Positions 1 to 64,000 of a DNA stretch of 64,000 nt are shown one piece after another. Each line of letters opens with the position of its first letter. Position 1 is the first letter of the stretch. Made by a program: the position numbers and the translations under genes. The stretch comes from an uncultured Clostridia bacterium (GTDB lineage: Bacteria > Bacillota > Clostridia > Oscillospirales > Ruminococcaceae): assembly GCA_945829235.1 (NCBI GenBank), contig CALZUA010000011.1, forward strand, positions 1 through 64,000, in the 5' to 3' direction. The notes beneath the pieces were generated by a model. That model saw nothing but the letters and a program-made list of their open reading frames with translations. It was not told the origin of the DNA and did no database searches.

Positions 1-125
1 CCGTCAATTTGTGAGCGCCAGACGGCAGGCACATTCCATCCATCCGTCAATTTGTGAGCGCCAGACGGCAGGCACATTCCATCCATCCGTCAATTTGTAA
101 GCGCCGGACGGCAGGCACATTCCTC
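1..125. repeat. 43-bp tandem repeat, about 2.9 copies
   Basis: Units start at 1, 44 and 87. The first two are identical over 43 bp, and the third differs at a few positions (a GTAAGCGCCGG variant) before ending in CTCGGG. Copies are contiguous without spacers, so this is not CRISPR. Each unit carries a CCGTC/GACGG inverted repeat. The array may continue to the left. Confidence 0.85.
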
Positions 126-136
126 GGGTAACCCCT
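1..136 (-). ncRNA. Cassette RNA4 with 43-bp repeats (runs off left edge)
   Basis: Predicted transcript from the promoter at 143-171, running leftward out of the window. After a short lead it consists of almost three copies of a 43-base unit. Each unit reads GGAATGTGCCTGCC, then a CCGTC...GACGG hairpin, on the minus strand. No open reading frame is apparent. The GAATGTGCC core also occurs in the hairpins of the two neighbouring cassettes at 370-565 and 625-820, so this looks like a related RNA. The 3' end and terminator lie outside the window. Confidence 0.5.
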
Positions 137-142
137 AAGTTT

Positions 143-171
143 ATTATACACCATCTTTTGTTAAATGTCAA
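143..171 (-). promoter_or_regulatory. Sigma-70 type promoter for cassette RNA4
   Basis: On the minus strand TTGACA (166-171) and TATAAT (143-148) are separated by exactly 17 bases. Both hexamers are perfect consensus. No protein start follows, so it most likely serves the repeat-containing RNA. Confidence 0.75.
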
Positions 172-183
172 CTACTTTTTAGT

Positions 184-311
184 TAAAAAAATGTGCTATT
201 TACAGCACATCTTTTATTTATTCTCTTTGGCACCAAAAAGTTAAGCTAAAAATTTGAACCCGACAATTTGTTTACTCCGCATATCGGTGAGCCGAGAAAA
301 ATTTGAACTTG
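184..311 (-). ncRNA. Cassette RNA3, about 128 nt
   Basis: Bounded by a perfect-consensus promoter (318-346, minus) and an intrinsic terminator (hairpin 191-210 followed by seven U). It contains no credible reading frame. Its sequence differs from the 255-bp cassettes, but it shares an AACAAATTG(T/A)CGG motif with the 43-bp repeats of RNA4. The function is unknown. Confidence 0.5.
185..210 (-). terminator. Intrinsic terminator of RNA3
   Basis: ATGTGCT (191-197) and AGCACAT (204-210) form a perfect 7-bp stem. On the minus strand it is followed by seven or more U residues. A weaker U-rich run also follows on the plus strand. Confidence 0.7.
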
Positions 312-317
312 ACATTT

Positions 318-346
318 ATTATACACCATTTTTTCGTTTTTGTCAA
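318..346 (-). promoter_or_regulatory. Sigma-70 type promoter for cassette RNA3
   Basis: TTGACA (341-346) and TATAAT (318-323) on the minus strand with a 17-base spacer. It lies just downstream of the terminator of the previous cassette. Confidence 0.75.
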
Positions 347-369
347 CAAGTTTTGCAGAATTTCAAATT

Positions 370-565
370 GAAAATTTAAAAGGGGACAACCTCCCCGCAG
401 TTCGGCAGTCCCCTTTTAATGATTGCTTTTTCTGTTGTCCGCCAACTGTCCGGCACGTACGTCCGGAAGAATTTCAGGTTTTTCTGTTGCCTGCCAACTG
501 TCCGGCACATTCGTCCGGAAAAACTTTCGGATTTAAGTGGCAATCCACTGACAGCTTACCTGCCC
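370..565 (-). ncRNA. Cassette RNA2, about 195 nt
   Basis: Minus-strand transcript predicted between the promoter at 572-600 and the terminator at 378-417. It folds into an AGTGG-CAAT-CCACT hairpin, then two repeated modules of the form CCGGAC(GAAT/GTAC)GTGCCGG followed by ACAGTTGGC, then the terminator. There is no conserved reading frame. It is a sister copy of RNA1 (625-820). The repeated hairpins would suit a protein- or RNA-binding decoy, but that is inference. Confidence 0.55.
378..417 (-). terminator. Intrinsic terminator of RNA2
   Basis: AAAAGGGGAC (378-387) pairs perfectly with GTCCCCTTTT (408-417). A U-rich tail follows on both strands. Confidence 0.7.
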
Positions 566-571
566 ACTTAT

Positions 572-600
572 ATTTTACTCGATTTCTCCTGATTTGTCAA
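572..600 (-). promoter_or_regulatory. Sigma-70 type promoter for cassette RNA2
   Basis: TTGACA (595-600), a 17-base spacer and TAAAAT (572-577) on the minus strand. Confidence 0.75.
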
Positions 601-624
601 CACGTTTTGCAGAATTTCAGCTCA

Positions 625-820
625 AAAATTTAAAAAGGGGACAACCTCCCCGCAGTTCGGCAGTCCCCTTTTAATGATTGCTTTTTTTGTTGTCCGCCAA
701 CCCTCCGGCACATTCGTCCGGAAACATTTCAGGTTTTTTTGTTGCCTGCCAACCCTCCGGCACATTCGTCCGGCAACACTTTCGGATTTAAGTGGCAATC
801 CACTGACAGCTTACCTGCCC
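625..820 (-). ncRNA. Cassette RNA1, about 195 nt
   Basis: Minus-strand transcript predicted between the promoter at 827-855 and the terminator at 632-672. It has the same architecture as RNA2: one AGTGG/CCACT hairpin, two tandem modules with a CCGGACGAATGTGCCGG hairpin followed by AGGGTTGGC, then the terminator. In the first module flanking GTTGCC and GGCAAC can close an outer stem. There is no reading frame of note. Confidence 0.55.
632..672 (-). terminator. Intrinsic terminator of RNA1
   Basis: AAAAGGGGAC (633-642) pairs with GTCCCCTTTT (663-672). The downstream minus strand is U-rich. Confidence 0.7.
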
Positions 821-826
821 AACTCT

Positions 827-855
827 ATTTTATCACAAAACTCTGTATTTGTCAA
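827..855 (-). promoter_or_regulatory. Sigma-70 type promoter for cassette RNA1
   Basis: TTGACA (850-855), 17 bases and TAAAAT (827-832) on the minus strand, about 85 bp downstream of the rubrerythrin stop codon. Confidence 0.7.
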
Positions 856-940
856 CAGTTTTTGCAATAAAATCAGTTTCACTCAACCGAAAAGCCTTTC
901 CCGATAAACCACGTTCGTTTTGAGGGAGAGGAGTTCAAAC

Positions 941-1600: not shown

Positions 1601-1693
1601 AGTAATTTCTCCTTTTACAAAAAAATTTCGGCAAAATCAAATTATACGCTTTTGCAAAAGCTGAAAAAGCTGTTGATATCAGCCGATAATATT

Positions 1694-1722
1694 ATTATAA
1701 CACAAATTTCGGCAAAAGTCAA
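1694..1722 (-). promoter_or_regulatory. Rubrerythrin promoter
   Basis: On the minus strand TTGACT (1717-1722), 17 bases, TATAAT (1694-1699). The leader that follows can form GCTG...CAGC hairpins. Confidence 0.7.
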
Positions 1723-1753
1723 CAGCTTTTTTGTGCAATGTTACAAATTTTGT

Positions 1754-2062
1754 TCAACTCTCGAGCATTGCAAGAATTTGCGCTTTTGGCCTTGAACCAA
1801 CCGCGCGATGAACAACCTTGCCGTTTTTCATTACAATGAGCGTCGGTATGTTTTCAACATCGAACATCTGAGCAAGCTGTTGCTCCTCGTCAACGTTGAT
1901 TTTGCCGACAAGGTACTGCGGATTTTCCTCGGCGATGCTGTCCACAAGCGGCGAAACCATCTGGCACGGTCCGCACCAAACCGCGTAAAAATCGAGAAGC
2001 ACGGGCTTCTCGCTGTTTTTCACCTCGTCAAAATTGCTCAAAGTTACGTTCATTACAGACAT
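1754..2062 (-). CDS. trxA: Thioredoxin
   Basis: Cytoplasmic dithiol reductase of 102 residues with the active-site motif WCGPC (residues ~29-33) in the context DFYAVWCGPC, and the cis-proline region NIPTLIVMKNG, as in canonical thioredoxin. The length is typical. It starts at ATG 2062 with a GGAAG-type ribosome site; a second ATG three codons in is possible. Its own promoter lies at 2095-2123. Thioredoxin reductase is not in the window. It sits beside rubrerythrin but with a separate promoter, so the two are probably neighbours in redox defence rather than co-transcribed. Confidence 0.96.
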   Translation of the reverse strand: MSVMNVTLSNFDEVKNSEKPVLLDFYAVWCGPCQMVSPLVDSIAEENPQYLVGKINVDEEQQLAQMFDVENIPTLIVMKNGKVVHRAVGSRPKAQILAMLES

Positions 2063-2094
2063 TTCTCATACTTCCTTTCTGAATTTATACCTTT

Positions 2095-2123
2095 ATTATA
2101 ACCCAAAAATCCGTTGATTTCAA
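2095..2123 (-). promoter_or_regulatory. trxA promoter
   Basis: TTGAAA (2118-2123), 17 bases and TATAAT (2095-2100) on the minus strand. Confidence 0.7.
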
Positions 2124-2200
2124 CAAAAATTTTGCGTTTTTCAAAATTTTCTGCTCGATAAATGGGAATTTTACATCTTGTAAAAATACGATTTCCATAA

Positions 2201-2419
2201 CTATATAACGTGAACTATTTCAGATATAAACCAAATTGCTAAAATAACTGATAAAATCGAAAATGCAATCAATATCTGCTTTCTTTTCTTAGTTATTTTG
2301 GGTTCATTATTGTTTTTACTATAATCTTTATAGATTCCAAAATTACTATATACTTGCATAATACACAATAAAAAAATAATTCCGCTTTGTATAACGTAAC
2401 GATATTTTTCCATATCCAT
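2201..2419 (-). CDS. Small two-helix membrane protein, unknown function
   Basis: A 72-residue protein with two hydrophobic segments (about residues 7-26 and 48-70) separated by a basic, Lys-rich loop containing KITKKRK. The start at ATG 2419 is preceded by AAGGAGT, while an upstream in-frame start gives an unlikely basic extension. I do not recognise a family. Codon use is more AT-rich than in the neighbours, suggesting a less conserved or acquired gene. Confidence 0.6.
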   Translation of the reverse strand: MDMEKYRYVIQSGIIFLLCIMQVYSNFGIYKDYSKNNNEPKITKKRKQILIAFSILSVILAIWFISEIVHVI

Positions 2420-2544
2420 TACTCCTTCATATTCCGATTTCTCGCTCTGTTCATTATACCACAATCCCCCAAAAATTGCAACAAAAAATCCGTCAAACTT
2501 TCTTCGGTAGTTTCGGTGAAATGAATTTCGCTTTTTCACGGTTA

Positions 2545-2573
2545 TTGACAAGAGGAAAAAGTTGGTGTATAAT
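2545..2573 (+). promoter_or_regulatory. Promoter of the SWIM-MoxR-VWA operon
   Basis: TTGACA (2545-2550), 17 bases and TATAAT (2568-2573), a perfect consensus. It lies 36 bp ahead of the first gene. No further promoter or terminator is evident until 11410, so the six genes appear to form one operon. Confidence 0.75.
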
Positions 2574-2608
2574 GAAGAAAAGAATTTTCCCGATGAAAGG
2601 ATAAAAAT

Positions 2609-4030
2609 ATGTCAACAGTCGAAATTATCACGGAAGAGCTTGTTCGCTCTCTTGCGCCAAACCCCGCCGCGTTCTCGAATGCACAGAAAATTTCCCGAAG
2701 CGGCGACTTTTCGGGGCTGTCCGTAACCGCCGACAAAACGCTGATTTTCGGCGAGTGCAAGGGCAGCGGCAAGAACCCCTACCGCACCTCTGCGGATTTT
2801 TCGGGCGAGTCACCGATTTGCCGTTGCAGTTGTCCGAGCAGGCAGTTCCCGTGCAAGCACTCTCTTGCGTTGATGCTCGAATACAGCTCCGGCAAATCGT
2901 TCACGCAAGCAGAGGCACCCGAGGACGTTGCCGCGAAACGCGAGAAAATTGCCAAAAAAGCCGAGAAATCGGCTTCGGGTGAAGCAAAGCCAGCTCCCAA
3001 GCAGAACAAAGCCGCGGCCGCCAAGAAGCTCCAAAAGCAAGCCGAGGGGCTTGACCTCGCGGAGCAGTTCGTGAACGACGTGTTCAGCCGCGGCGTTTCT
3101 TCGATAAACAGAACGAGCGCGGCGCAGTACAGGTCGCTTGCAAAGCAACTCGGCGACTTTTATCTCCCCGAGCCGATGGCAATTGTATTGGACATCGTGA
3201 CCGCCGCCGAAGCGCTTTCCGCTGAACCAAACGATGCGGAGGCGGCGCGGTTGGTTGCGCTTTGCACAAAGCTCAGTTCAACGATAAAAAAGAGCCGCGT
3301 GTACATAAACGAGAAGCTCGAAAGCGGCGAGGTGTTGCCCGAGGACAGCCTGCTTTACGAAGCAATGGGCGGCGTATGGAAGCTCACTCAGCTCAAGGAA
3401 ATCGGTCTGTTCAAGGAGAACGCGCGGATTATTCAGCTCTCCTTCTCGGTGCTTTTCGACAGCACTCACGCCGCGTACATTGACACGGGTTATTGGCTTG
3501 ACCTTGACAGCGGCGAAATCTCCAAAACCGAGAATATCCGCCCGCTGAAGGTGCTCAAGCACCTGACGGCGGCAGACAGCTCGTTCGGCGTGTACAACGT
3601 TCCCGAGCTTTACCGCTATCCCGGCGGCTTGAACAGGCGTATCCGCTGGGAAAGCGCGACAACTGCCGAGGCTCGTCCCGAGGACTATGAGCGGGCAATT
3701 TCACTTGCCGAGCCGAGCCTTGCCGATGCGGTGAAAAAGGCGAAAAACGAGCTGAAGAACACGCTCTCCGATGAGGCAACCGCGGTGCTTTTGCCGTTTG
3801 ATTTCATCGGTTTTGCGGAGGACGGTCACGGCGTGCTGAAAAACGGTGATGAAAGTATTTCGCTTTGTGAAACGGCGGCTTATCCGAATGTTATCAACGT
3901 GCTGAGAATAGCGAAAATTCCGCATAAGGGCGCGGTTCTCGGCGAACTTTTCTACAACTCGGACGAGCGCAGAATTTATCTTTGCCCGCTGTCCGTGGTT
4001 TCGGTTGACGGCGCGACAAGGCTGGTTTAA
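2609..4030 (+). CDS. SWIM zinc-finger protein
   Basis: First gene of a six-gene operon; 473 residues. A SWIM-type zinc finger lies near residues 58-90, with CRCSCPSRQFPCKH giving the CxC...CxH ligands. A Lys/Ala-rich linker (about 105-145) follows, then a long helical C-terminal region with no motif I recognise. SWIM fingers bind DNA or protein. In bacteria such proteins often accompany MoxR/VWA gene pairs, where they may select the target. The next gene starts 11 bp downstream. The start is ATG 2609 after GAAAGGAT. Confidence 0.85.
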   Translation: MSTVEIITEELVRSLAPNPAAFSNAQKISRSGDFSGLSVTADKTLIFGECKGSGKNPYRTSADFSGESPICRCSCPSRQFPCKHSLALMLEYSSGKSFTQAEAPEDVAAKREKIAKKAEKSASGEAKPAPKQNKAAAAKKLQKQAEGLDLAEQFVNDVFSRGVSSINRTSAAQYRSLAKQLGDFYLPEPMAIVLDIVTAAEALSAEPNDAEAARLVALCTKLSSTIKKSRVYINEKLESGEVLPEDSLLYEAMGGVWKLTQLKEIGLFKENARIIQLSFSVLFDSTHAAYIDTGYWLDLDSGEISKTENIRPLKVLKHLTAADSSFGVYNVPELYRYPGGLNRRIRWESATTAEARPEDYERAISLAEPSLADAVKKAKNELKNTLSDEATAVLLPFDFIGFAEDGHGVLKNGDESISLCETAAYPNVINVLRIAKIPHKGAVLGELFYNSDERRIYLCPLSVVSVDGATRLV

Positions 4031-4041
4031 GGGGGAAAATT

Positions 4042-5952
4042 ATGGATATTTCAAAATTCTACGAGCTTCGCGAACGGCTCTATAACACCGCGGCGGCGGG
4101 TTGTATGACGGTATCCGAGGATTTTCGCCTGAAACGCGCTGTCGAGGATTTCAAGCCGCTTGCTGAGGCAAACAAGGCTTTCGCGAAGCTGTTTTCGTTG
4201 TGTGAAAAGCTGTTGTCGGCGGACAAACCCGAGTGCGTTATCGCTGATTGTATCGCGCTTTGCGATGCTCTTGCGGTAACGCAGGGCGCTTTCGCCGACA
4301 GTGCCGCGGCAACTCGCGCCGATGGTGTTTACCCGACAGTTGAAAAGCCCGCCTCCGCGATTTCCGCGATAACCACGCTGATTTCAAAGAGCGACACCGA
4401 TTTGTGGAAATTGTCCGCTGAGTACAAGGACACGCTTCGCGACCCGCGCGTGATTTCGGCGTTTATCGTTGCGCTTGAAAAGGGGAAGTTCAACGAGAAT
4501 TTCCAGATTTTCTGCGAGATAATGTGCGAAGTCTGCGGCAAGGGACTTGTACCCGCGCTGAAAGCCTCGGTCAAGGACACGGGCAGGCAACTCAAATATA
4601 TCGCAAAGCTCACCGGTGACGAGGAAAACGAGTATTTTCGCGCGCTTGCCACGGACGAGAGCAAGCCCGAAAAAGTGCGCGTTGAAGCGGTTTCCGCACT
4701 TGGCTGCTCGCCGGAAAACGGCGCGCTTCTCGCCGAAATCTTCAACACGAGCAAGGGCAAAATCAAGGACGCGGCGCTTATGACGCTTGCGGAAACAGAC
4801 GCGCCCGAGGCTGAACCGATATTTGAAAAGCTGCTGCAAAAGTATAAGAAGAGCTATGCGGAAATTGTTGCCACTTCAAGCGGAAAGACCTGCACGGAGT
4901 TTGTGAGAAAGCACCTGCTCGGTCTGCTGGATGCCGTGGAGCACGCCGTGGACGACATAGCACGGCTGGAAACAGCATCAGAGTTAGTGAATTCTGCGGC
5001 AATACTTCTCCGAAACAAAACCGAGCTTGACGATGTTTTTCTGGAACTTTTGGCGCACCCCGAGTTATCGTTTAACGTCAATCCCCAAAACAGCTGCAGA
5101 GCTGCTCTTGAGAATGGAATACTGGGCAAAAACGGCGCGGCTGTCTGTGCACAGATTAACCGACTTTACGAGAAAGCCCCCGATGTTTTCTACCGACCTA
5201 AGGCTTATGCGGATTTCATAGAACATCCCGAAAAAGAGCCTGTTGTACCGGACAGCGAATTTGAACACTATACTTTAATAGGCTCGATTTCATATGTTCC
5301 GTTGCTCGGCAGTTACTTCTTCACTCATCTTGATAGTATGAAATTTCCACTGCAACCGCTATTCAAAAGGCTTCCCGAGTGGATGCTGAATTATATTCGC
5401 ACAAGGGGCGATTTGACGGAAAAGCTATTCCGGGACATAGACGCACCGAAACGAGCGGATATGGTGAAAAACGCCGAGAAACTCGGGTTTAAGGGCGACG
5501 CAAAGGAGGACGCGCTTGCCGCTGCAAACAGGACAGCGAACAATACCATATATATGATTTCGAGCGTTATCCGCAGAAGCCTTCTCCCGAACTGCTCCGC
5601 CGAGGATTACGAGCGGATTAGAGCGGCGGGAACTTACTTTGCGAAAAAGTGTATGAACTCGTTTGGCGGGCACGGCGTAATTGCGCTGATAGAGCAAATG
5701 AACCAAGAGATGTCTAACGCAGAATATGCAGAAATGCTGAACACCTTTACAATAAATTCTCTGAAAGAAAATAACGCTGCCGAAAGACAGCTTCTGTTTT
5801 TTTATGAAAAACACTTGCCGTCCGATGAAGTTGTCAGTGCGATGGAAAATCTGCTTGCGCGTGTTGAAAAGCTGCGCGGCGATGTTGACGGCAAGGCAAT
5901 AGACGACCAGATCTGTCTGATAAACTTAAGAATTAAAATGCATAAGAAATAA
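4042..5952 (+). CDS. Helical-repeat (HEAT-like) protein of the MoxR-VWA operon
   Basis: A 636-residue soluble, largely helical protein. HEAT-like segments such as EKVRVEAVSALGCSPENGALL and IKDAALMTLAETDAPEAEPIF (about residues 213-262) suggest a superhelical scaffold. It may correspond to the DUF5691-type component known from similar clusters, but I could not confirm that by eye. It lies between the SWIM and MoxR genes with gaps of 11 and 12 bp. By position it may be an adaptor for the ATPase. It has no catalytic motif, signal peptide or membrane segment. Confidence 0.7.
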   Translation: MDISKFYELRERLYNTAAAGCMTVSEDFRLKRAVEDFKPLAEANKAFAKLFSLCEKLLSADKPECVIADCIALCDALAVTQGAFADSAAATRADGVYPTVEKPASAISAITTLISKSDTDLWKLSAEYKDTLRDPRVISAFIVALEKGKFNENFQIFCEIMCEVCGKGLVPALKASVKDTGRQLKYIAKLTGDEENEYFRALATDESKPEKVRVEAVSALGCSPENGALLAEIFNTSKGKIKDAALMTLAETDAPEAEPIFEKLLQKYKKSYAEIVATSSGKTCTEFVRKHLLGLLDAVEHAVDDIARLETASELVNSAAILLRNKTELDDVFLELLAHPELSFNVNPQNSCRAALENGILGKNGAAVCAQINRLYEKAPDVFYRPKAYADFIEHPEKEPVVPDSEFEHYTLIGSISYVPLLGSYFFTHLDSMKFPLQPLFKRLPEWMLNYIRTRGDLTEKLFRDIDAPKRADMVKNAEKLGFKGDAKEDALAAANRTANNTIYMISSVIRRSLLPNCSAEDYERIRAAGTYFAKKCMNSFGGHGVIALIEQMNQEMSNAEYAEMLNTFTINSLKENNAAERQLLFFYEKHLPSDEVVSAMENLLARVEKLRGDVDGKAIDDQICLINLRIKMHKK

Positions 5953-11645: not shown

Positions 11646-14600
11646 ATGCAAGCAAAAACCACAAACAAGGTTTGGGCGCTTGTGTTGTCGCTGATTATGT
11701 TGCTGACGCTTATCCCGTTCAGCCCATTTTCAGGTAAGGCAAGCGCAGATTCGGGAAGTTATGTTCTCGATGTCAACAGTCTGACTGCAGGCGATTATGT
11801 CGGTAAAACGATTAAAGCAGGCACAGACGATTTCTTCACCGTAAAATTCGGTGACAAGGGAAAGATTGATAGCACCGCCGAAAAGAAATTCGACGATGGC
11901 TATACAGCAAGTACCCGCATTAACTTCGGCGGTAAGACAACTGTTGGCGCCGGAGCTCGTGAAATCGAGTTCAAGACCACAGGCGCTGCTGAAGTAAAGG
12001 TATGGTGGGTTTCGGGCGGCAATGACCGTTTCGTTTCCATCTACAACGCTTCCGGCGAAAAAGCGGACGCTACAAAGGTTTCCGCGAAGGACACTCTGTA
12101 CGTTAGCAAGCTGAATGTTTCTCAAGCAGGTACATATCAGCTCGTTTGTGCAGAGGGCACAAACTACCTCTTCAAGGTTGAGGTTACACCTATGGCTGAA
12201 GCCAAGGAGTACGAGTTCGTTTCTTCAACGCTTGACAAGGCAGACGCAGGTTCATTCACCGACGGTCAGGCTGTCAAGGCTGGTACAGACAACTATTTCA
12301 CTCTGTACTGCAGTGCAAAGACCAAGATTGACGGTAGCGACAAGGTATTCCCCGATGGCAATACCTTAACTGCTCCCAGAGTAAACTTTGGCGGCAAGGC
12401 AGACATTTCCGTTCCCAAGAACTGCATCAGCTTCAAGACAAGCGGTGCCGCAGACATCAAGGTTTGGTGGGTTGAAGGCGGAGAAAACTCGGAGCGCCAG
12501 ATGGTAATTTACGATGCTTCGGGAAATGAAGTTGCCAAGACAAATGTTACCACTCTTGCCAAGAACGATTCTTGCGTTTCCGCGCTTCAGGTACCGAGCG
12601 CAGGTACCTATTTCCTCGGCGGCGATGTTAACAACAACTACATCTTCAAGGTTAAGGTAACCGAGGGTGGCTCTGTTGTTATCCGCAAGGATTGGAGTTC
12701 CGTAGCTTCCCCTGTTGTATACTATCCGACTGTTGATTCCGAGAACAAGGCAAACGTTAAAGTAAACGTTTCTGCGGTTGTCGGCGCAGACGGCGGTGAC
12801 GCGGTTAAGGTTGTTCTGTACGATGAGAAGGGCAATGAGGTTGATTCCAAGCAGTCGCTTGCAGAGGATAAATCTCACTCCCTCACCTTTACTCCTCCCG
12901 CTTCGGGCAAGTATACGATCAAGGCAGTCCTTTCACGCGACGGTTATCCCGATAAGGAGAGCTTTGCGAAGGAGTTTTCTTTCGTTCTTCCTCTCACAAA
13001 ATCCGCAATTTCTTCCGCTACCAGCAAGGGTGACGGCAAGGTTGAGGTTATCTGGAGCCCCGTCAAGGAGGCAACCGGCTACAACGTTTACTGCAACGGC
13101 ACAAAGGTTGGTTCGACAGCCGACACCTCTTATAAGGTAACCGGACTTACTATTGGCGACAAGTGCAAGTTCACCGTAGCGGCAGTTCGCGGCAGTGAAG
13201 AAGGCCCGCAGTCCGATGCTATTCAGACAACCGTAACCAAGGACGCAAAGCAGACTTGGGGCTGGGTTCGCTTCGGTACATCTACCGATGACGATAACAA
13301 CGGTTATGTTGGTAGCCTTAACGAGGACGGCAAGGTTACCGTTTACTCCGAGAACGGCAAGGGCAAAATTCAGTCCTCTTCCAACGACGGAATTTCGTTC
13401 TATTACACACCTGTTCCCACCAGCCAGAACTTTACACTTCGTGCAAATGTTCACGTTGACAACTGGGATTTCTCCAACGGACAGGAGGGCTTCGGACTTG
13501 TTGCACTCGACAGCATTCCCGAGGTTAACAGCTCCAACGTGTTCTGGACTAACTCTTATATGGCGGCGGCAACTCTGATTTCTTACAGATATGACGCTTC
13601 CAAGACCAACAACATCTACAACGGCGTTGTATTTGACGGCACTGGCGACAAGTACAGCATGTACATCGGACTTGGCGTTGATACAAAGCTTGGTATGACC
13701 AAGGAGAACATCGACTCGATTTACGCGTCACCCGCGGGTAAGATTGAGTTCGGTCAGTATCCTCTCGACCTCTCTCTTGCAAAGAACGGCGCGGCGGCAG
13801 GCGACTACAATATGATCGGCAACTGCACCAATGCAGATAAGCTCCGCGGTCCTTCCTACAAGCAGATGACCGACTTTATCCTTGAAATCCAGAGAAACAA
13901 CACCGGTTACTTCCTCTCTTACTACACCAAGGACGGCGCTCTTGTAAAGACTCAGAAATTCTATGACACGAAGGCTCTTGACCAGCTTGATGAGGAGAAC
14001 GTTTACGTTGGCTTCTTTGCGGCAAGACGCGCTCGTGCAACCTTCTCGAACGTTAAGTTCACGACAACTGACCCCAAGGACGACGCTCCTGCTGAGGCAA
14101 GACCTGTTGAGAAGATTGACGCAAACCTCGTTATCTCCTCTGCTACTTATTCCAACTCCGCAAGCTACAATCTGCTTGTAACACCGAACGTAGACGGTAA
14201 GGTTGACGTTCTTGACGGCGGTAAACCTTTGGCAGAAGGCGTGGCTGTTAAGGCTGATACTCTCGCGTCAATTCCTTTCGGCCTTTTCGGAAACACAAAC
14301 AAGCTCACGATTATCTTCACACCCGATCCCGAACAGGATTTGGGCGAGAGCAAGGCACTTGCAAGCACCGACCCTGTAACCTATGAACATGTAGTTTCCT
14401 ACGACGAGTATTTTGCAAATCAGAAGAACATCTACGTTTCACCGAATGCCGGTGCATACGGAAACGGCGGTCCCGAGTACCCGCTGAGCATTTACGAAGC
14501 GGTTAAGGTTGTACAGCCCGGTCAGAAGATTATTCTTATGGAGGGCACCTACAAGCTCGACAAACAGCTTGTTATCGCTCGCGGCATTGACGGCACAGCT

Positions 14601-15752
14601 GAAGCTCCTATCTATATGATAGCTGACCCGAACGCAAAGACCAGACCTGTTTTCGATATGCAGAGCAAGGTTAACGGTATCATTGCGGCAGGCAATTACT
14701 GGTACTTCAAGGGCTTTGACGTAACAAAGTCGGGCAACAACAACGGCGGCTTCCACCTTTGCGGTAGCTACAATATTCTCAATGACATAAACGCATACGA
14801 GAACAGCGACTCGGGTATTTATATCCACGCGTATAACAACTCAACTGACCCCAGAGAGCTTTGGCCGCACGACAACCTCGTTCTCAACTGCACGTCCTTC
14901 AACAACGCGGACACCGGTTATGAGAACGCAGACGGTTTTGCATGCAAGCTCACCACGGGTGACAACAACGTATTTGACGGTTGCGTTTCGTACAACAACG
15001 CGGACGATGGCTGGGACTGCTACGCTAGAGCGGCGCACGGTTCAATCGGCGCGGTTACAATCAAGAACTGCGTAGCTTACAACAACGGCTATCTGCTTGA
15101 CGGCACGAACGCGGGTAATGGTAACGGCTTTAAGATGGGCGGCGAAAGCCTCGCGGCAGGTCACACCATCATCAACTCTATTGCCTTCAACAACAAGGCG
15201 AAGGGTATTGACTGCAACTCCTGCCCCGACATTCACATCATCAACTGCACATCTTACAACAACGAGGGCTACAACGTAGCTTGCTACACCGGCAACGCTA
15301 CTATCAGCACGGACTTCTCGTCCGAGGGTGCGATTTCGTTCAAGGACAGCTCTGTCAAGAGCGGACTTGGCGAGGCTGACAACTTCAAGCCGCAGGGCAC
15401 TCAGGACATCACGAAGTTTGGCGGCGAGAGCAACTTTGTATGGGACGGCTCTGCTTCCAAGAACTCGAAGGACGTTAAGGTATCGGCTGATTGGTTCAAG
15501 TCGCTTGAGTTCAAGGGCGTAAAGCGCAATGCAGACGGCACTATCGATATGCAGGGCTTCCTCGAGCTCACAGACAAGGCTCCCAAGAACGCGGGCGCAA
15601 GAATGGCTCCCACAAAGGTTGCGGAAATCGAGATTACTCCCGATGAAAATCTTCCTGCACCTCGCACGGGCGTTGAGTTCCCTGTTATCATTCTGATTGC
15701 TGTTCTTGCGGCAACTGTAACGGTTCTCATCGTTAAGCGTAAGAGAGCATAA
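11646..15752 (+). CDS. Cell-wall-anchored multidomain pectate lyase (PL9-like)
   Basis: Secreted 1368-residue enzyme that probably cleaves polygalacturonate by beta-elimination at the cell surface. The order is: signal peptide (1-~36); two related beta-sandwich modules (~38-180, ~188-343), each with an INFGGK/VNFGGK and KVWWV motif; an Ig-like segment; a fibronectin-III-like domain (~452-535); a LamG-like region (~540-820); and a right-handed beta-helix (~930-1250). Asn-rich coils such as DNLVLNCTSFNNADTG, NADGFACK, DDGWD and GNGFKMGG there resemble polysaccharide lyase family 9. The C-terminus has APRTG, a hydrophobic segment and KRKRA, a sortase signal with A in place of L. It is preceded by a cre site and followed by a terminator. 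Confidence 0.85.
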   Translation: MQAKTTNKVWALVLSLIMLLTLIPFSPFSGKASADSGSYVLDVNSLTAGDYVGKTIKAGTDDFFTVKFGDKGKIDSTAEKKFDDGYTASTRINFGGKTTVGAGAREIEFKTTGAAEVKVWWVSGGNDRFVSIYNASGEKADATKVSAKDTLYVSKLNVSQAGTYQLVCAEGTNYLFKVEVTPMAEAKEYEFVSSTLDKADAGSFTDGQAVKAGTDNYFTLYCSAKTKIDGSDKVFPDGNTLTAPRVNFGGKADISVPKNCISFKTSGAADIKVWWVEGGENSERQMVIYDASGNEVAKTNVTTLAKNDSCVSALQVPSAGTYFLGGDVNNNYIFKVKVTEGGSVVIRKDWSSVASPVVYYPTVDSENKANVKVNVSAVVGADGGDAVKVVLYDEKGNEVDSKQSLAEDKSHSLTFTPPASGKYTIKAVLSRDGYPDKESFAKEFSFVLPLTKSAISSATSKGDGKVEVIWSPVKEATGYNVYCNGTKVGSTADTSYKVTGLTIGDKCKFTVAAVRGSEEGPQSDAIQTTVTKDAKQTWGWVRFGTSTDDDNNGYVGSLNEDGKVTVYSENGKGKIQSSSNDGISFYYTPVPTSQNFTLRANVHVDNWDFSNGQEGFGLVALDSIPEVNSSNVFWTNSYMAAATLISYRYDASKTNNIYNGVVFDGTGDKYSMYIGLGVDTKLGMTKENIDSIYASPAGKIEFGQYPLDLSLAKNGAAAGDYNMIGNCTNADKLRGPSYKQMTDFILEIQRNNTGYFLSYYTKDGALVKTQKFYDTKALDQLDEENVYVGFFAARRARATFSNVKFTTTDPKDDAPAEARPVEKIDANLVISSATYSNSASYNLLVTPNVDGKVDVLDGGKPLAEGVAVKADTLASIPFGLFGNTNKLTIIFTPDPEQDLGESKALASTDPVTYEHVVSYDEYFANQKNIYVSPNAGAYGNGGPEYPLSIYEAVKVVQPGQKIILMEGTYKLDKQLVIARGIDGTAEAPIYMIADPNAKTRPVFDMQSKVNGIIAAGNYWYFKGFDVTKSGNNNGGFHLCGSYNILNDINAYENSDSGIYIHAYNNSTDPRELWPHDNLVLNCTSFNNADTGYENADGFACKLTTGDNNVFDGCVSYNNADDGWDCYARAAHGSIGAVTIKNCVAYNNGYLLDGTNAGNGNGFKMGGESLAAGHTIINSIAFNNKAKGIDCNSCPDIHIINCTSYNNEGYNVACYTGNATISTDFSSEGAISFKDSSVKSGLGEADNFKPQGTQDITKFGGESNFVWDGSASKNSKDVKVSADWFKSLEFKGVKRNADGTIDMQGFLELTDKAPKNAGARMAPTKVAEIEITPDENLPAPRTGVEFPVIILIAVLAATVTVLIVKRKRA

Positions 15753-43480: not shown

Positions 43481-44071
43481 TTACTTTTTCTTGCTGTTCT
43501 TTGTTGCCTTAGCGGGCTTTGCGGCGGGCTTTGCGGCAGGCTTAGGAGCAACCTTAGCTTCGGTTTTTGCGGGAGCAACAGGTGCCTTAGCTTCGGTTTT
43601 TGCGGGAGCAACAGGTGCCTTAGCTTCGGTTTTTGCAGGAGCAACAGGTGCCTTAGCTTCGGTCTTTGCAGGAGTCGCAGGCTTGGTTTCCTTAGTAGCG
43701 GGCTTAGCGGCAGTCTTAGCGGGAGCCTTTGCCGCCTTCTTTGCGGGAACGAGAACCTCAAGTGCCTTGAACTTTGCTACATCGCCCGATTTAACCTTAA
43801 TAAATCCTTTATCGAGAGCGTCTGCGAAAGAAAGTGCGCCGCTGAAAACCTTGTCGATAATCTCGGGAGCGGCCTCGATAGCGCAACCGTTGTCGTTATA
43901 AGGATAAGGAGCAACGAGAATTTTTCCCTCTCTTACAGCAACGTACAAATCTTCATTTGCTTCTGATATCAGGGAGATGGAAACTGCAACAGTATCCTCA
44001 AATTTCTTCGCTTTAGAAGCGGCGGGTTTAAGATAACCCATTACCTTTTCGGAAAGCTCTGCGTTATTCAT
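43481..44071 (-). CDS. Protein with Lys/Ala/Pro-rich repeat tail
   Basis: 196 residues. An N-terminal globular part (~1-105) includes VGYLKPAASKAKKFEDTVAVS-like helices and EGKILVAPYPYNDNGCAIEAAPEI; I cannot assign it with confidence. From ~107 the tail is low complexity, with three exact PAKTEAKAPVA units and AAKPA runs, and ends KNSKKK. Such tails resemble histone H1-like nucleic-acid or polyanion binding segments. The promoter is at 44152-44180. Confidence 0.7.
   Translation of the reverse strand: MNNAELSEKVMGYLKPAASKAKKFEDTVAVSISLISEANEDLYVAVREGKILVAPYPYNDNGCAIEAAPEIIDKVFSGALSFADALDKGFIKVKSGDVAKFKALEVLVPAKKAAKAPAKTAAKPATKETKPATPAKTEAKAPVAPAKTEAKAPVAPAKTEAKAPVAPAKTEAKVAPKPAAKPAAKPAKATKNSKKK
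43555..43670. repeat. 33-bp in-frame tandem repeat, three copies
   Basis: Each unit encodes PAKTEAKAPVA on the minus strand within the 43481-44071 gene. Copies are almost identical at DNA level, so copy number may vary by slippage without a frameshift. Confidence 0.8.
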
Positions 44072-58066: not shown

Positions 58067-58095
58067 TTGACAATTTTTGGGGAGTGTGCTATAAT
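58067..58095 (+). promoter_or_regulatory. Promoter of the rod-shaped RNA
   Basis: TTGACA (58067-58072), 17 bases, TATAAT (58090-58095), a perfect consensus. The start point near 58102 coincides with the first base of the long stem. Confidence 0.75.
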
Positions 58096-58101
58096 TAAAC
58101 T

Positions 58102-58262
58102 GCGACACAATTTAATACGACAGTGGTTAGGTATACACTTTTCCTATATGGTAAAAGTGCATGCTCTTTTTTCGTATACCTTAACTGTTGTCGAAAAATT
58201 GTGTCGCAGCAATCGGAGCTTTGCATTTTTCGGTGCGTGGCTTCGGCTACGCACTTTTTTAT
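58102..58262 (+). ncRNA. Rod-shaped structured RNA ending in a terminator
   Basis: About 160 nt. The 5' end GCGACACAATTT (58102-58113) pairs perfectly with AAATTGTGTCGC (58196-58207). After a small internal loop, 58119-58136 pairs with 58174-58192 over 18 positions including GGTATAC/GTATACC. An apical region holds an ACTTTT/AAAAGT hairpin. A terminator closes the unit at 58233-58261. It could be a free small RNA (6S-like outline) or an attenuating leader for the membrane protein at 58278. I do not recognise the class. Confidence 0.6.
58233..58261 (+). terminator. Terminator ending the rod-shaped RNA
   Basis: GTGCGTGGC-TTCG-GCTACGCAC hairpin followed by seven T, 17 bp before the next start codon. 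Confidence 0.8.
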
Positions 58263-58277
58263 TTTGGGAGTAAAATT

Positions 58278-58931
58278 ATGAATGATAGCATTTCGATTAA
58301 GGTTACAAAACTCTTTTGGGGAATTGAAATAATTGCTTTAATGACTTGCATTGCCGTAAATGTATTTTTATTTCTGTTTTTATTGCAATATTTTAACTAC
58401 TCTCATATACCAAGTCTAAATAATTATTTAGAAAGCTTTATCGGTGGTTTTGGTTCGGTATTAAATGCGGTTATGTTTTGGCGTGTCTGTGCAATTGTTT
58501 GCTTTTCATCTTCGGTGATGTTTTTAATTATGCTGTATCTGATTGGCTTCAATAAGTTCGGTAAACCTGCGTGCGGAACAGTTTTCACAACAGTTTTATT
58601 TATTATGAATTTTTTGGTAGCACCGTTTTCATCGGTTGAGAAATTTGAAGAATATGTAGTTAGAAATATCAACAGCATTGATTACAGCAACATTGATTCC
58701 GGTGTGGTTAACTTCATATTTGTGGTTGTGATGATTACGCCGGTTATTTCGTTGTTTTTGTTTATGTTTTCTTTCTCCGATTTGGATAAAAAGCTCAGGA
58801 AAAAGCTACTTCCGTTAAATAAAATCGCAAAAGCGCCGACCTCGTTTCCACGAAATCGGCGCTTCAAATATTCGATTATCCGAAATCAGACGGAGGGCTT
58901 AGCCTTGAAAGAGAGGCAGTCCGTGCACTGA
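58278..58931 (+). CDS. Multi-helix membrane protein, unknown function
   Basis: 217 residues from ATG 58278, preceded by TTGGGAG. Hydrophobic helices lie at about 14-40, 70-95, 103-122 and 150-172, and the C-terminus is basic. No family is recognised. The gene is more AT-rich than its neighbours, suggesting acquisition. It follows a promoter-RNA-terminator unit and so probably depends on read-through. Its last 15 codons overlap a convergent DUF1540 gene and contain that gene's probable terminator, so the C-terminal end may be a recent extension. Confidence 0.65.
   Translation: MNDSISIKVTKLFWGIEIIALMTCIAVNVFLFLFLLQYFNYSHIPSLNNYLESFIGGFGSVLNAVMFWRVCAIVCFSSSVMFLIMLYLIGFNKFGKPACGTVFTTVLFIMNFLVAPFSSVEKFEEYVVRNINSIDYSNIDSGVVNFIFVVVMITPVISLFLFMFSFSDLDKKLRKKLLPLNKIAKAPTSFPRNRRFKYSIIRNQTEGLALKERQSVH
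58828..58866 (-). terminator. Terminator of the DUF1540 gene, inside the convergent gene
   Basis: AGCGCCGA (about 58830) pairs with TCGGCGCT (about 58855-58862). On the minus strand TTTTGCGATTTTATT follows. Confidence 0.65.
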
Positions 58932-63565: not shown

Positions 63566-64000
63566 ATGAAAAAGATTTTTTTATCCGCAATCCTCTGCGG
63601 CTCGCTGATTTTAACCCTCTCGGGCTGTGGAAACAGAAACAACTCCGATAATTCTTCGGAAATGGCTTCGGGTGAAAACTCCGAACAGACCTCGTCTGAA
63701 CAGACCTCGTCTGAACAGACCTCTGAAAGTTCAACCGAAAGCTCGTCTGACCAGTCCTCTGAAGGATCAAACGAAAACTCCGGTGTTAACGGCGGTGCAG
63801 GCGCTGACAACAGCTCTCTCCCGTTCCCCGACAACCGTGCCGGAAGAATGGCGGCGGCGGCTCTCAGAACCGATGTTTGGCCCGCGATGGACGTTGTAAG
63901 CGAGGTTGATATGATTGGCTCGATGTTCTCGACAGACGAGGGCGAGGTGTTTAATCTCGATGACCTTGAGGAATATTGCTTCTGCACCAACGTTATAAGC
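63566..64000 (+). CDS. DUF4358-like lipoprotein (cut by right edge)
   Basis: 145 residues visible; the gene continues past the window. The lipoprotein signal has LILTLSGCG (lipidated Cys ~21). A Ser/Glu/Gln-rich spacer follows with tandem SSEQT units (~41-55). The domain start ADNSSLPFPDNRAGRMAAAALRTDVWPAMDVVSE and DLEEYCFCTNVIS resemble DUF4358 proteins of Clostridia, whose function is unknown. ATG 63566 follows GAAAGGAAAC. The protein is probably anchored outside the cell membrane. Confidence 0.75.
   Translation, partial: MKKIFLSAILCGSLILTLSGCGNRNNSDNSSEMASGENSEQTSSEQTSSEQTSESSTESSSDQSSEGSNENSGVNGGAGADNSSLPFPDNRAGRMAAAALRTDVWPAMDVVSEVDMIGSMFSTDEGEVFNLDDLEEYCFCTNVIS

Follow-up and report, generated by a model that had tools for sequence, protein, structure and literature searches.

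Putative orphan type III antitoxin RNAs in four packed cassettes at a Clostridia contig end, and their relatives in front of PBECR4 nuclease genes

Described RNA antitoxins and the four cassettes

The type III toxin-antitoxin systems ToxIN, CptIN and TenpIN have in common a promoter, a repeated pseudoknot RNA and an intrinsic terminator. Type III antitoxins also occur without their toxin, as in phage PhiTE, whose pseudo-ToxI consists of toxin-free antitoxin copies that protect against the toxin (PMC3475682). The non-coding AbiF RNA of C. difficile (RCd22), with its two repeated motifs and its terminator, precedes a toxin gene and is active in trans (PMC12373285), and in chromosomal anti-addiction modules a chromosomal antitoxin acts against toxins of mobile elements (PMC12548467).

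Here we describe four minus-strand cassettes, T1 to T4, tightly packed in positions 1-860 of the window (the whole stretch analysed, 64,000 nucleotides), at the start of a gut-type bacterial contig. We think it probable that they make up an island of type III antitoxin RNAs without their toxins (orphans), which could neutralise the toxins of incoming elements, T1 and T2 being of a PBECR4 kind, T3 of the CptI kind and T4 of a third kind. Like the type III antitoxins they are predicted to form pseudoknots, for T1 from covariation, for T4 from an H-type arm order with one changed pair and for T3 by eye; in addition, complete relatives of T1 and T2 have a toxin gene 3' of the terminator, and T3 resembles the CptI repeat. 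They differ from the described type III systems in that the window lacks toxin genes and in that the T1/T2 kind has PBECR4 as its toxin, a family recognised by none of the ToxN, CptIN and TenpIN models. Pseudo-ToxI is phage-borne and like one ToxI, whereas three kinds lie adjacent here on a bacterial contig; AbiF pairs an Abi_2-type protein with the abiF RNA motif, whereas T1 and T2 are without a match in Rfam, which extends to abiF if release 15 contains that family; and the cases cited in PMC12548467 are complete toxin-antitoxin systems, whereas the window has RNA antitoxins alone. An island of different type III RNA antidotes side by side is not described in the open-licence literature searched, among the matches listed. 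The parts of the four cassettes are as follows.

827..855, minus strand: T1 promoter, TTGACA-17-TAAAAT (promoter scan)
632..820, minus strand: T1 RNA with a predicted start point (sequence, repeats, structure model)
791-804, minus strand: T1 leader hairpin H0, marked by hand
783-786, minus strand: T1 strand UCCG (structure model)
757-773 and 741-753, minus strand: hairpins of T1 unit 1, with strand CCUG at 730-733 (structure model)
705-721 and 689-701, minus strand: hairpins of T1 unit 2 (structure model)
676-681, minus strand: T1 strand GCAAUC, then the terminator at 633-672 (structure model)
572..600, minus strand: T2 promoter, TTGACA-17-TAAAAT (promoter scan)
377..565, minus strand: T2 RNA, which repeats T1 in register at -255 (repeat comparison, structure model)
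536-549, 434-518, 421-426 and 378-417, minus strand: T2 hairpin H0, two 52-nt units, strand GCAAUC and terminator
318..346, minus strand: T3 promoter, TTGACA-17-TATAAT (promoter scan)
185..311, minus strand: T3 RNA (CptI alignment, repeat, terminator at 185-210)
257-291, minus strand: T3 CptI-like unit; GCUC/GAGU and CCGA/UCGG are possible arms read by eye, and the flank has a partial second copy
143..171, minus strand: T4 promoter, TTGACA-17-TATAAT (promoter scan)
1..136, minus strand: T4 RNA, truncated at the contig end, with H-type pseudoknot arms in each of three 43-nt units (87-118, 44-75 and 1-32)

An earlier note on this DNA had read four sigma-70 promoters with 17-base spacers on the minus strand, and all four are confirmed, each with 11-12 of the 12 consensus bases. 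Promoter-like sites are enriched in positions 1-2000 (10, against 2.1 +/- 1.3 in shuffles), and four of the 20 sites with at least 11/12 matches on both strands of the 64 kb fall within the first 860 bases. The note's three intrinsic terminators can likewise be read in the sequence, after the repeats of T1, T2 and T3 at about 633-672, 378-417 and 185-210, though the number of terminator-like sites in 1-2000 (4) is no greater than in shuffles (3.1 +/- 1.6) with a simple scanner that flagged only the inner stem of the T1 and T2 terminators and put the T3 terminator on the plus strand. The spacing from each terminator to the next -35 is 31, 31 and 13 nt, which leaves no room for a gene between cassettes, and five ORFs of 55-97 aa in the region match no Pfam family (best E 0.11), in agreement with the note's view that the row holds no protein genes. 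Its fourth transcript does run off: a contig of the draft assembly (52 contigs) ends at position 1, where the T4 array is cut. Neither this contig end nor the two 52-nt repeats of T1 and of T2, nor the 43-nt array of T4, had appeared in the note.

Behind each promoter lies a repeat RNA, with two 52-nt units in T1 and in T2, about 2.9 units of 43 nt in T4, and one unit plus a partial flank copy in T3. No toxin gene follows the terminators of T1 to T3 in the window, and we therefore class the cassettes as orphan antitoxins. Cassettes of promoter, sRNA and terminator are the usual form of bacterial sRNAs, and the nearest genes beyond the row encode rubrerythrin and thioredoxin, both of which would suit ordinary trans-acting regulatory sRNAs of unrelated function. 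We regard this as very improbable: the relatives of T1 and T2 precede PBECR4 genes, T3 resembles CptI, and no Rfam sRNA family matches the region at gathering score, laxer limits giving only matches far below it.

T1, T2 and their relatives

T1 and T2 form a duplication of 241 nt, 88% identical and 255 apart, as the earlier note had recognised; in each, a leader precedes the pair of 52-nt repeats and a terminator follows them. By eye, the T1-type fold is interlocked by three loop pairings: the H0 loop pairs with the strand 3' of the last unit, the strand after H0 with that unit's loop, and the unit-1 loop with the strand behind unit 1. We evaluated these pairings in 11 sequences (T1, T2, L003, L024, L025, L030, L031, L033, L201, L202 and L203), counting identical pairs once. 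The cognate sum was reached in 0, 6 and 0 of 20,000 permutations for the three pairings, with arms marked by hand, a model first seen in some of the tested sequences and a permutation that ignores relatedness, close relatives in the set being T1/T2/L003 and L024/L025; for two local control pairings the observed sum was reached in 14,875 and 18,798 of 20,000. The H0 pairing has 6-7 bp in seven of nine distinct rows, 5 bp in L203 and 3 bp in L031, and the second and third pairings have 4 bp in every row (10 and 9 rows). L210, which lies outside the set, forms the first pairing with 6 bp, the second with 4 bp and the unit-1 pairing with 2 bp; this last value and the 3 bp of L031 are weak points of the island reading. 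From the covariation of the loop pairings, the T1-type antitoxin repeats are predicted to form pseudoknots.

The two copies also indicate what has been kept. Promoter hexamers, arms, pairing loops and terminator do not differ between T1 and T2 (0/130), whereas 29 of the 111 remaining positions do (Fisher 1.8e-11; structural mask drawn on T1), so that the earlier observation of conserved stems and varying unpaired parts holds for this pair. This bears on the possibility that the cassettes are leftovers of complete toxin-antitoxin loci, of no present use after toxin loss. Such loss is expected in mobile regions and broken copies do occur among the relatives (a PBECR4 gene with stops in L181, a ToxN gene in two pieces in L193/L198), but T1 and T2 have kept their paired parts unchanged while unpaired positions diverge, and gaps of 13-31 nt hold no toxin scar. 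We therefore consider leftovers unlikely. Neutralisation in trans, as proposed for an antitoxin island, would account for the retention of intact promoters and paired parts without an adjacent toxin.

Relatives of these RNAs were sought in the genus by a DNA search (43 genomes), in GTDB genomes by one pattern scan, and in plasmids. The genus and GTDB searches gave L003 (on the same contig as L029), L004 (the 3' end of a T1-type RNA only, at a contig start), L024, L025, L030, L031, L032 and L033, and the plasmid search gave L210, a weak T1-type match on a Kurthia plasmid (E 0.01). In six of these nine RNA-led loci the T1-type RNA lies directly 5' of a gene for a PBECR4 nuclease (PF18813), which was recognised after the terminator by Pfam in L004, L024, L025, L032 and L033 (E 2.7e-19 to 3.6e-33) and by tblastn in L030 (4e-47). 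L030 and L032 are near-identical (892/900), which reduces the independent count to five of eight. The order at the PBECR4-linked loci is promoter, repeats, terminator, toxin, that of type III toxin-antitoxin systems, and in L032 a ToxN gene stands just before the PBECR4 system. Protein-led searches added three further PBECR4 genes (Pfam E 4.8e-18 to 1.7e-26) with a T1-type RNA in front, in an IMG/VR contig (L201), Erysipelothrix phage phi1605 (L202) and a Macrococcoides plasmid (L203).

Orphan T1-type RNAs recur as well, in L003/L029, L031 and the Kurthia plasmid: tblastn with four proteins (E up to 0.01) found no PBECR4 in 8 kb at L029, 8 kb at L031, 4 kb at L210 or the window, and the window's own genome (G000) has no PF18813 match. 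In L003 the T1-type RNA has a PezT/zeta-type gene on one side and an integrase on the other. Beside that PezT/zeta-type gene, at about 2686-2900 on the plus strand, are two more tandem cassettes of promoter and hairpin, unlike T1-T4.

Several candidates were set aside. Two weak DNA matches of the genus search (L026, L028) resemble coding sequence, and a 14-base motif scanned in viral contigs returned at least 120 stretches, expected to be mostly chance. BLAST of positions 371-830 against phages gave no match.

PBECR4 nucleases and drum RNA

PBECR proteins are predicted RNases of phages and mobile elements (PMC5512222). The terms noncoding RNA and RNA antitoxin are absent from the text of that paper, which defined the PBECR domains, and the name PBECR4 had no match in the literature searched. 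In a sample of PBECR4 genes not chosen by RNA (12 loci with PF18813, from 9 of 394 genomes in the order and 3 of 398 in the phylum), we applied a mechanical rule that asks for a promoter, at least 60 nt, and a terminator whose end is no more than 75 nt from the start codon. The rule holds for 8 of the 12 PBECR4 loci against 1 of 51 window genes (Fisher 1e-6). Of the ToxN matches in the genus, 13 of 15 obey it, and one broken gene contributes two pieces to the 15. The rule missed L178, L179 and L204, which are positive by eye, and L176, which is negative by eye.

The RNA directly upstream of PBECR4 is most often drum (RF02958), found at gathering score in 7/12 loci (L174, L175, L177, L179, L180, L182 and L204) and, in a narrower search, in L206 at 43.0 bits, exactly the gathering score, giving 8/12 in all. 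Among the 29 loci searched with Rfam, drum was found nowhere except before PBECR4. It thus shares its position with the T1-type RNAs and differs from T1 and T2 in structure; its model gave no match in 360-830 even at E up to 10. Other leaders, structured by eye, precede PBECR4 in L178, L181 (the gene with stops) and L205, and L176 has no leader. None of the 12 loci carries a T1-type RNA, which makes this RNA a minority partner of PBECR4. To our knowledge drum RNA has no assigned function, and the term 'drum RNA' was not found among the literature matches listed; the family now gains a concrete candidate partner, as PBECR4 is tied to upstream RNAs. The L178 leader, on the reverse strand, has two repeated stretches and no Rfam match at gathering score.

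PBECR4 itself shows no match to ToxN, CptIN or TenpIN, PF18813 being the sole match among these Pfam families; four proteins scanned with the NCBIfam CptIN and TenpIN models gave none up to E 1, and a profile search of PDB chains gave none either. A structure prediction from three sequences reached a pLDDT of 35. The C-terminal tail of the L025 PBECR4 (1678-2706, plus strand) resembles ToxN tails of the same genus by tblastn, with 47% identity over 74 aa to L189 and 38% over 69 aa to L155.

From gene order and leaders, PBECR4 looks like a new RNA-neutralised toxin family whose nuclease is a predicted RNase. A broader statement can be made more tentatively, and we would put it slightly short of an even chance: that the PBECR4 nucleases are type III-like toxins neutralised by RNA, form a new and widespread class and have two or more families of antitoxin RNA (interlocked T1-type and drum), and that the window carries a chromosomal antitoxin-only array gathering antidotes to several kinds of toxin as immunity against toxin-bearing mobile elements.

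T3, T4 and the contig end

A CptI repeat of Eubacterium rectale is printed in a primer (PMC4627078). T3 aligns to this one published repeat, on which the comparison rests, over 35 columns with a score of 20, a value reached by none of 2000 dinucleotide shuffles (mean 7.2, sd 1.2, max 15). Elsewhere in the window the highest score is 13, and T1, T2 and T4 score 7-9. By this similarity T3 holds a putative CptI-like antitoxin unit. No CptN gene follows it, the T4 cassette beginning after 13 nt, and the CptIN model found nothing in the 43 genus genomes, the window's own included, in a search in which the control was also silent. In a different genome of the genus, a relative of T3 (L157) follows a gene for RNA polymerase beta'; the T3 pattern itself occurs in the window alone among the 43 genus genomes and in none of the viral contigs.

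Single CptI-like units were seen in two viral contigs. In L211 (about 4147-4190, plus strand) one lies just before a gene, with an arm ACCGC/GCGG against ACCAC/GUGG in CptI; the same contig has a Type-P5 twister ribozyme at 14229-14294 on the minus strand. In L212, a 150-kb IMG/VR contig, another (about 14655-14694, plus strand) directly follows a tRNA-Asn gene in a tRNA cluster and is a candidate viral antitoxin mimic. A further candidate, L213, lies inside an ORF and was dropped.

In T4, each 43-nt unit has the arms GUGCC/GGCGC and CCGUC/GACGG in H-type order, an arrangement found three times in the window, twice in L155 and once in L156, where GUGCC has become GCGCC, a single changed pair that amounts to weak covariation. 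Both relatives emerged from a search of the genus, which matched in 33 of 43 genomes, mostly in the promoter region only, and from which L155, L156 and L157 were kept. The T4-type arrays of L155 and L156 have a promoter and terminator by eye and adjoin a ToxN gene whose own repeats differ (those of L156 being partly N); in L155 the array is followed by a complete ToxIN locus. We take T4 to be a putative third kind of antitoxin RNA. Its pattern was found in the window alone among 391 genomes of the class and not at all in viral contigs; a looser pattern gave L207 and L208, both within ORFs of GC-rich viral contigs and rejected. BLAST of 1-350 against phages gave one Microviridae match, taken as chance, and 1-312 had no match in plasmids.

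Since T4 runs off the contig, a toxin gene could follow it, and the four cassettes might form the array-bearing upstream part of a longer locus whose toxin gene or genes lie past the contig end. There is precedent for such an arrangement in L155 and in the single ToxN locus of the window's own genome (contig 42), where two consecutive arrays, by eye, precede the gene. However, that ToxN has its own repeats, different from T4; the other contigs of this 100% complete draft hold no second copy of the T4 repeat, no PBECR4 and no CptN (with the silent control noted above); and even a toxin past T4 would leave T1-T3 without cognate toxins. A longer locus is, in our judgement, decidedly unlikely.

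The most reasonable reading is thus an island of orphan antitoxins, in which each cassette has its own strong promoter, repeat units capable of forming pseudoknots and, in T1-T3, an intrinsic terminator. The four RNAs would be expressed and would bind cognate RNase toxins in trans, perhaps neutralising toxins that phages, plasmids and integrative elements introduce or set free, as a form of anti-addiction or counter-suicide. This modifies what the earlier note had suggested. A cluster of small-RNA genes is supported for T1 and T2, but not as one family, T1/T2, T3 and T4 being three different kinds; of its decoy or antisense RNAs, the decoy comes near the best explanation while antisense does not, given the PBECR4 genes behind the T1/T2 relatives and the match of T3 to CptI; and the copies look like several antitoxins and one duplication, not like a matter of dose for a single regulator. 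Should these RNAs be functional, bacteria keep a stock of adjacent RNA antidotes that belong to different type III kinds.

Elsewhere in the window, positions 58067-58931 (plus strand) contain a 12/12 promoter, a long and very stable predicted hairpin at 58093-58215 (-45.7 kcal/mol, z -8.4 against shuffles), a terminator and then a 217-aa ORF that matches no Pfam family, an arrangement that looks like a structured leader. Two stretches, 43552-43674 and 63683-63780, hold short in-phase tandem repeats (33 and 15-36 bp).
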